The translations under genes were made by a program, and so were the position numbers. A stretch of 34,206 bases of DNA from a virus. The DNA is taken from the IMG/VR virus record IMGVR_UViG_3300047276_000337, positions 1 to 34,206 of that record; one strand, written 5' to 3'. Under the pieces are notes generated by a model. That model saw only the letters and a list, made by a program, of their open reading frames with translations. It had not been told where the DNA came from and made no database searches. Shown here piece by piece: positions 2,544 through 3,570 of the stretch (position 1 is its first letter; every line of letters begins with the position of its first letter).

Positions 2544-2743
2544 TTAGACCTCACCTGAGCTGCGAGCTCAAGACCTACCTCGCGGTAATCCCGGTCGTAG
2601 TCCGCAACCTCGGCCTCAATCTCACGGGCGCAAGCCTCGCGGGTCGTGGACTCCACTAGGTTAGCTAAGGCCATCAGGAACTCGTCAGGACTTAAGCCCT
2701 GCGGGACTTTGGCGATCAAATTACCTACTTCTTGGGTATCCAT
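2540..2743 (-). CDS. Unknown acidic helical protein, 67 aa; first gene of the leftward operon
   Basis: ATG at 2743 follows GGAG with five bases of spacing. The 67-residue product is acidic and helical (SPDEFLMALANLVES, REACAREIEAEVADYDRD) with no recognised domain. It overlaps the next gene by ATGA. As the first gene after the candidate leftward promoter (2762-2790), it is probably among the first proteins made from this strand. Function unknown. Confidence 0.6.
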   Translation of the reverse strand: MDTQEVGNLIAKVPQGLSPDEFLMALANLVESTTREACAREIEAEVADYDRDYREVGLELAAQVRSK

Positions 2744-2761
2744 AAAATCTCCGTTTTGGGT

Positions 2762-2790
2762 AGATTATCTGTTTTAGAAACTGTTTGCAA
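2762..2790 (-). promoter_or_regulatory. Candidate leftward promoter with operator dyad
   Basis: On the minus strand TTGCAA (2790-2785) is followed by AAACAGTTT, a 9-base dyad at 2778-2786. Possible -10 elements are GATAAT (15-base spacer) or TAATCT (17-base spacer). The TTGCAAACAGTTT string is repeated in inverted orientation at 3278-3290 in front of the rightward operon, so the two divergent promoters share one control element. Confidence 0.5.
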
Positions 2791-2815
2791 TCCCTAAAAG
2801 CCCAAAGACCGACCA

Positions 2816-2839
2816 ACTAGCAAAAACAAGTTTTTGCCA
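2816..2839. terminator. Symmetric A/T-rich hairpin, possible terminator
   Basis: GCAAAAA and TTTTTGC pair around a CTTG loop (minus-strand reading), extended outward by G-C and a few further pairs to a stem of about ten. It is nearly symmetric and so could act on either strand. It lies at the downstream edge of the structured leftward region and just upstream of the leftward operon promoter. The stem itself supplies the U-run, so termination would be weak to moderate. Confidence 0.4.
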
Positions 2840-3003
2840 GACTTACATGGAGATGTATCCCGTAACAACGGTACTCTAGGTAGCCATGCCCACTACTAGA
2901 CGGATATAGCGGGTGTCGACCCCGGCTCCGTGGCTACTTATTCCACGGCCTCTATCCCATCCCCGCCTTTTAGACTTAGCTGGCGTTTCGCGCAGCCAGC
3001 TAC
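2840..3003. other. Gene-free structured block in the divergent control region
   Basis: No supported gene. The block is dense in short inverted repeats: CCGTGG/CCACGG (2928-2948), an 8-bp perfect stem TAGCTGGC/GCCAGCTA (2977-3002), GGGT/ACCC (2911-2922), CCGT/ACGG (2860-2871) and GTAGCCA/TGGCTAC (2880-2886 with 2931-2937). AGACTTA occurs at about 2840 and 2973 and again at 3121. It could be a leader RNA, a second small RNA or part of a replication origin. A 62-codon frame across it lacks a ribosome site and is not called. Confidence 0.4.
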
Positions 3004-3187
3004 CAAAGAAAAACCCGCATAAGACTAGAGCGTGGCTCTTGGCATGAGCAGCCATTGAAACCAATAAGAGCAGACATACAGTAAGCCGAACTCATCGGTT
3101 TTAACGCTACACACGCCCTAGACTTATGCGGGCTGCATCTGTATGTCCTGACTTTTGGTTTCAACGGATGCCACTCCGCTGACGGCT
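3004..3187 (-). ncRNA. Candidate structured RNA of about 185 nt with interleaved helices
   Basis: Read leftward from the promoter at 3219-3192, the RNA would contain a small hairpin (3178-3165), helix arm B' (3164-3139), arm A' (3132-3112), a hairpin AAACCGA/TCGGCTT (3101-3083), arm B (3081-3055), a hairpin (3053-3034), arm A (3034-3014), then TTTTTCTTT. A pairs with A' at 19 of 21 positions; B pairs with B' in two perfect blocks of 10 and 9 plus a 3-base block. The order B'-A'-B-A is interleaved, so the helices form either a pseudoknot or two competing states. The A helix ending in GCGGG plus a U-run looks like an intrinsic terminator. I recognise no known RNA class. Confidence 0.55.
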
Positions 3188-3191
3188 CAAT

Positions 3192-3219
3192 TTTATATCC
3201 TGTTTAGCCCTGAAGTCAA
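3192..3219 (-). promoter_or_regulatory. Sigma70-type leftward promoter of the structured RNA
   Basis: TTGACT (3219-3214, five of six consensus) is separated by 16 bases from TATAAA (3197-3192, five of six); the overlapping TAAAAT gives an 18-base alternative. The predicted start is near 3184-3187. No open reading frame with a ribosome site follows for over 400 bases, so its immediate product is the structured RNA at 3004-3187, with possible read-through to the operon starting at 2743. Confidence 0.55.
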
Positions 3220-3277
3220 TAACCCCACAAATTGTAGGGAAATATCAAAATAATTGAAAAAAAGATGCCAAACCCTA

Positions 3278-3329
3278 TTGCAAACAGTTTACTAATCGTT
3301 TTATGATTCTCCTACGGTCACTTGATCGT
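3278..3329 (+). promoter_or_regulatory. Rightward early promoter with operator and start-site dyad
   Basis: TTGCAA (3278-3283), 18 bases, then TATGAT (3302-3307, five of six). The dyad AAACAGTTT (3282-3290) overlaps the -35 edge. At the predicted start site is a second dyad, ACGGTCA/TGATCGT (3314-3320 and 3323-3329). The first early gene begins at 3349 after a leader of about 35 bases. A/T-rich sequence upstream (3240-3262) could act as an UP element. Confidence 0.55.
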
Positions 3330-3348
3330 AACTAACCGGAGAGAATAA

Positions 3349-3570
3349 ATGAAACTAATCGAACATCAAGCAGCAACTAGCACAACAGCAGAAACATTTA
3401 GAATCGTTAGCGAAACTGGCGTTAGATACAGAGTTTCTGCCCCGTTTGAAATCAAAGGTTTGTTCAAAAAAGATTGGAGCGCATATGTCGATGGTCGTGG
3501 CGCTAGATTTGTAACAGACACAAAACCCGGACAAGCAGCAATTCAGTTTGCAAAAAATTTACAGCAATAA
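3349..3570 (+). CDS. First early gene, unknown, 73 aa
   Basis: ATG at 3349 follows CGGAGAGAATAA, a good ribosome site. The product has an N-terminal Thr/Ala-rich start, a beta-like middle (VRYRVSAPFEIKGLFKKDWSAYVDGRGARFVTDT) and a short C-terminal helix (GQAAIQFAKNLQQ). It is small, basic and soluble, with no Cys and no membrane segment. As the first product of the early promoter it is a candidate host-takeover protein, but nothing in the sequence proves that. A stable hairpin follows its stop codon. Confidence 0.65.
   Translation: MKLIEHQAATSTTAETFRIVSETGVRYRVSAPFEIKGLFKKDWSAYVDGRGARFVTDTKPGQAAIQFAKNLQQ

Follow-up and report, generated by a model that had tools for sequence, protein, structure and literature searches.

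A predicted pseudoknotted phage RNA with a hypervariable, compensated helix and an exchangeable second domain

The window analysed here, 34,206 bases long, comprises an entire viral contig from IMG/VR. The element of interest is flanked by two divergent operons, according to ten neighbouring proteins: a rightward recombination operon with an Erf-like annealing protein, an exonuclease and an SSB, and on the other side a leftward operon encoding a replication-initiation-like protein together with a RusA-like resolvase. By reading of the sequence, the leftward operon has a separate promoter-like TTGCAA-17-TAATCT (2762-2790, minus strand). Two oppositely oriented TTGCAAACAGTTT-type sequences (2785-2790 and 3278-3283) head the promoter-like sites of both divergent operons and are arranged as a shared operator would be.

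Between the operons, a first-pass annotation of positions 3004-3219 had described two interleaved inverted repeats, a leftward promoter and a terminator-like stem, and these observations are confirmed. The repeat 3014-3034/3112-3132 (21 nt, 90%) is recovered mechanically; the window contains just one 21-nt repeat with at least 19 matches and arms within 160 nt, and 10 block-shuffled copies contain none. The second repeat is made up of two blocks, 3055-3064/3155-3164 and 3073-3081/3139-3147, and the two repeats are indeed interleaved in order on the minus strand. Hereafter the second repeat is called helix A, and the first one, which abuts the T-run, helix B. GCGGG followed by TTTTTCTTT is found as claimed. 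Folding of the minus strand from 3186 to 3004 gives -73.3 kcal/mol, a z-score of -5.72 relative to dinucleotide shuffles. Four helices beyond the two repeats (P1, P2, P3 and C) are recognized, and the strand at 2995-3000, just past 3004-3219, is complementary to the 5' end of the RNA. As judged from sequence, the repeats are helices of a predicted minus-strand structured RNA starting near 3183.

The sigma70-like promoter of this RNA (3190-3219, minus strand) consists of TTGACT at 3219-3214, 18 nt, and TAAAAT at 3195-3190. The -10 hexamer had been read as TATAAA, which is also present, although relatives favour TAAAAT, 6 nt before the start. In the listed relatives, the distance from the end of the -10-like hexamer to GUC is 6 nt in most cases and 5 or 7 nt in some, and the start in the window is placed at 3183 because of this nearly constant distance. 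A promoter score of at least 8 out of 12 is found at the matching place in 74% of 81 distinct relatives, as compared with 1.2% of random places.

The predicted RNA can be followed along the minus strand from its 5' end. The initial GUCAGC (3178-3183) is one strand of P1 and overlaps, as an alternative pairing, the P2 hairpin CAGCGG(A)-GUGGCA-(U)CCGUUG (3162-3181), in which both-sided changes are seen in families I and III, as defined below. The P2 loop contains the P3 strand UGGC (3170-3173), whose partner GCCA lies at 3040-3043. The first part of helix A, taken from the family I alignment, pairs UUGAAACCAA (3155-3164) with UUGGUUUCAA (3055-3064), and its second, hypervariable part, identified by covariation and permutation, pairs 3139-3147 with 3073-3081. 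Helix B (3112-3132 with 3014-3034) is recognized from the inverted repeat and from the alignments of families I and III; these alignments also give helix C, AUGAG (3091-3095) with CUCAU (3044-3048), which surrounds the 3' strand of A. The U-rich run UUUUUCUUU (3005-3013) directly follows helix B, and a T-run is located there in the relatives read. The 3' strand of P1, GCUGGC (2995-3000), pairs in families I and III, and is followed by a second structured domain (D2; 2810-2994 in its window type, folded by RNAalifold). The architecture is thus a first domain (D1) with P2, C and interleaved A and B, a 5' strand available to either P2' or P1', and an exchangeable D2, all as predicted from sequence comparison. 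The suggestion of a stand-alone pseudoknotted RNA is well supported in this respect, but its proposed length of about 185 nt is not: the conserved unit probably extends through D2 to about 2810, some 370 nt. No intrinsic terminator was found 3' of D2 by reading.

Three DNA patterns and two proteins encoded nearby served as queries for relatives in viral contigs, and yielded more than 100 contigs. From these, 103 distinct elements were parsed and fall into four sequence families: I (27, window included), II (8), III (49) and IV (19). A covariance model built from families I, II and IV recovers family III at E values of 7e-6 to 1e-3, and an extra member in L010 at 1.5e-12. The family III model, whose alignment contains four rows with a trimmed 5' end, does not recover the element of the window; families I, II and IV are linked to III by the reverse model search and by their shared anatomy.

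The covariation test proposed in the first-pass annotation was run on these relatives, and it favours the fold. The 103 elements contain 78 distinct A helices, each complementary to its own partner, and in an alignment-free test the pairing score of A is 9.4 with its own partner versus 5.7 with swapped ones; none of 2,000 permutations reaches the score of family I, III or IV, the small family II being uninformative. In the family III alignment (37 sequences), 97.6% of the cells are paired, with 135 both-sided changes versus 37.6 in shuffled alignments (0 of 500 reaching the observed value), and in family I (24 sequences) the corresponding numbers are 45 and 15.5 (again 0 of 500). These changes involve six of the nine A pairs and six of the 13 outer B pairs in family III, and fall in A, B and P2 in family I; for P2 they affect three of six pairs in family I and two of five in family III. 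Helix C is swapped for a complementary pair, GCATCT/AGATGC, in L115, L141 and L152. P3 is UGGCA/UGCCA in families I, II and IV versus UGACA or UGACG/UGUCA in III and is unchanging within family I, so that its support, carried by one family-level pair change, is only moderate. Some non-Watson-Crick U-G or G-U pairs are retained by whole families (37 of 37 in III, 24 of 24 in I), and the RNA is therefore assigned to the minus strand. The coevolution supports A and B as interleaved helices of one predicted fold, a true pseudoknot.

The 5' end has two potential partners. Its GUCAGC or GUCGG is complementary to the adjacent P2' and equally to P1' past the T-run, and P1 and P2, which have this strand in common, are each above all 2,000 permutations across all families. 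P1 is paired in 100% of the cells in the 24 family I sequences and in 87% in the 37 family III sequences, with four pairs showing both-sided changes in family III (0.7 in shuffled alignments) and one in family I. In families III and IV, P1 and P2 need the same bases and are mutually exclusive; in family I, a short P2 could persist beside P1. The two supported pairings sharing one strand therefore suggest ordered folding or a switch at the 5' end, of which we infer the order.

Past P1', the structured region occurs in at least eight types, in many combinations with the D1 families: 27 loci have the window type (window included), 27 the type read in L041 and L140, and 21 belong to a group holding the loci that match Rfam, further groups being smaller. 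The window type has 55 pairs in RNAalifold, 11 of them with both-sided changes; the L041 type shows many doubly changed pairs in an alignment that is gappy and contains misplaced rows. RF02932 (Betaproteobacteria-1), described in its Rfam entry only as an sRNA gene, matches the D2 of L163, L071 and L046 above the gathering score, at 68-91 bits, among the minority of the 21-member group that was scanned individually, and in L071 the match begins just 3' of P1'. The RF02932 model, 120 positions long, covers the second domain only, and D1 lies upstream, outside the model. The D2 of the window differs in giving no match to it at the gathering threshold, nor is there any in 2700-3400 up to an E value of 5. 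RF02932 also exists without D1, in the cultured Acidovorax phage AP1 (L252:2419-2542, 3' of a primase gene, again above the gathering score) and in a small number of genomes within a single bacterial order. For this orphan Rfam RNA, D1 may represent a 5' domain. Among other arrangements, L124 and L174 have an ATG and an apparent open frame at the T-run after D1 and lack P1' and D2, in L022 the operon is separated from the second domain by an apparent HNH endonuclease frame, and the second domain of L054 contains tRNA T-arm-like stretches, GGTTCAAGTCC and GGTGCAAATCC.

D1 is exchanged as well. When the window is compared by blastn with close relatives carrying family III, the flanks align (72-98% identity towards the rightward operon, 85-98% towards D2), while the stretch from the promoter through the end of D1 is left unaligned; the promoter and D1 are therefore taken to be exchanged as a cassette. 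Within one family, helix A diverges more than its surroundings: among 14 family III elements with the window-type D2, the p-distance is about 0.39 in the A stem versus 0.015 in B1, 0.06 in D2 and 0.10 in the promoter. In closer pairs, nearby genes show differences of 0.13-0.3 at four-fold sites and the A stem averages 0.38-0.56 in the same bins, although cassette exchange may have given genes and RNA separate histories. Nearly all A-stem changes are mirrored on the opposite strand, and diversification is therefore favoured. Diversification of the A stem beyond that of the neighbouring genes is thus suggestive, not proven, and the divergence could instead reflect exchange of D1 together with a constraint on structure only. 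Searching the contig of each A stem gave no similarity above the control level, which argues against a self target. It is conceivable, if quite doubtful, that helix A is an identity tag of the RNA, which would decide which rival-phage RNA or host factor is recognized as promoter and D1 are exchanged; specificity in phage-phage or phage-host conflict would then be encoded in RNA. In any case, the compensated hypervariability of a single helix offers a concrete lead to the partner of the RNA.

With regard to function, the element probably represents a class of stand-alone, trans-acting, phage-encoded structured RNAs with their own sigma70-type promoter, a reading preferred because it fits all lineages. 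P2 would close first and its loop would be available to P3 during the closing of A and B; P1' would then emerge and could displace P2, tying D1 to D2. The RNA would act in trans with the hypervariable A helix as its recognition surface, directed at another copy of the RNA or at a partner that evolves fast, for instance a host defence or a competing phage, and D2 may serve as the constant or effector part. On the other hand, the genes that follow the RNA have the same orientation in most phages, as they would after a leader.

A division into two adjacent RNAs is possible, with a D1 small RNA terminating at the T-run, perhaps with an Hfq-binding U tail, and a separate D2. The GC-rich stem followed by a T-run has the geometry of a terminator, the two loci in which D1 lacks P1' have an apparent reading frame immediately after it, and the D2 of the RF02932 type is found without D1. 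Yet the P1 partner sits past the run: in most relatives, P1 links the 5' end to that strand and covaries, and intrinsic terminators do not usually have a loop as long as the one here, some 77 nt.

A leader acting in cis is unlikely, whether on its own polymerase by antitermination, like HK022 put, or by attenuation at the T-run. HK022 put RNA acts in cis on RNA polymerase, and the present element is alike in being a phage RNA beside an early promoter (PMC9378689). The downstream genes are mostly co-oriented with the RNA (202 versus 40 ORF calls), so that a position in cis ahead of an operon, as for put, is usual, and the T-run directly after helix B and the conserved strand past it are also what a leader could contain. 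In the L072/L080/L098 lineage, however, the downstream genes, including one with a sigma-like helix-turn-helix sequence by reading of the protein, converge on the 3' end of the RNA; a difference from put is that this lineage has no co-oriented downstream operon. In addition, the T-run is interrupted in many family IV members (TTTTGCTTTT). The attenuator of the first-pass annotation, in which one helix hinders the terminator helix and controls entry into the leftward operon, fares poorly against the same lineage and against the coevolution of A and B as parts of one fold. It requires a competitor of the terminator stem, and none is among the pairings found: no observed pairing competes with either strand of 3014-3034/3112-3132, and P1 versus P2, the sole exclusive pair, leaves B untouched. 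Moreover, the leftward operon of the window has the promoter-like sequence of its own at 2790-2762. Inverted repeats acting at the DNA level, as protein sites or an origin, would suit a place between divergent recombination and replication operons, but are hardly credible in view of the conserved G-U pairs, the strand-specific promoter, the indels between helices, the interleaved topology and the independent replacement of helices.

Structured phage RNAs of unsettled function are already known as a kind. GOLLD and ROOL, which are larger than this RNA, give no Rfam match at the element. They resemble it as highly structured, phage- or prophage-linked non-coding RNAs whose function is unsettled (PMC12286853). 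The vrRNAs of VIPR are composed of 9-16 YNNGG repeats beside vipr genes, and are alike in being phage-encoded with a hypervariable part, one clade having a conserved pseudoknotted tail (PMC13142463); in the present RNA, the variable letters are instead paired within the molecule. VIPR vrRNA was set aside by its published description, the tandem YNNGG repeats being absent from the elements read, and none of the ten window proteins has a PHROG name of the vipr or RAMP kind.

The window gives no Rfam match, none of 4,227 Rfam families scores over D1 above its gathering threshold, and relaxed thresholds gave no credible match to D1. By megablast and distant blastn, at the sensitivities used, D1 was found neither in 50,697 phage records (several queries), with no hit to a cultured phage, nor in 72,556 plasmids (one query). 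The pattern GCYCAYGCCAAGRGCCAYRC has 65 matches in 84,980 bacterial genomes, judged to be chance because none has the B partner and T-run; a search of 399 genomes from a single bacterial order with covariance models, run without positive control, had no hits. The predicted RNA, with its paired hypervariable helix and exchangeable second domain, is thus undescribed in Rfam and in the sequence records and literature searched. Kept and reshuffled in more than 100 phage contigs and yet absent from Rfam and these phage records, it points to a function that phage biology does not yet account for.

A separate element, GGTGAATGCGCAGGCTGATGCGC...AAGCCGGAGATCAGCRCCGGCCACC, lies downstream of D1 in L060 and L090, two loci without an Rfam match. 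Coliphage HK620 has it too, in its late leader, as does Erwinia phage phiEt88, next to a tRNA (L242:2501-2586 and L243:2501-2634), and the L060 query matched 89 phage records.
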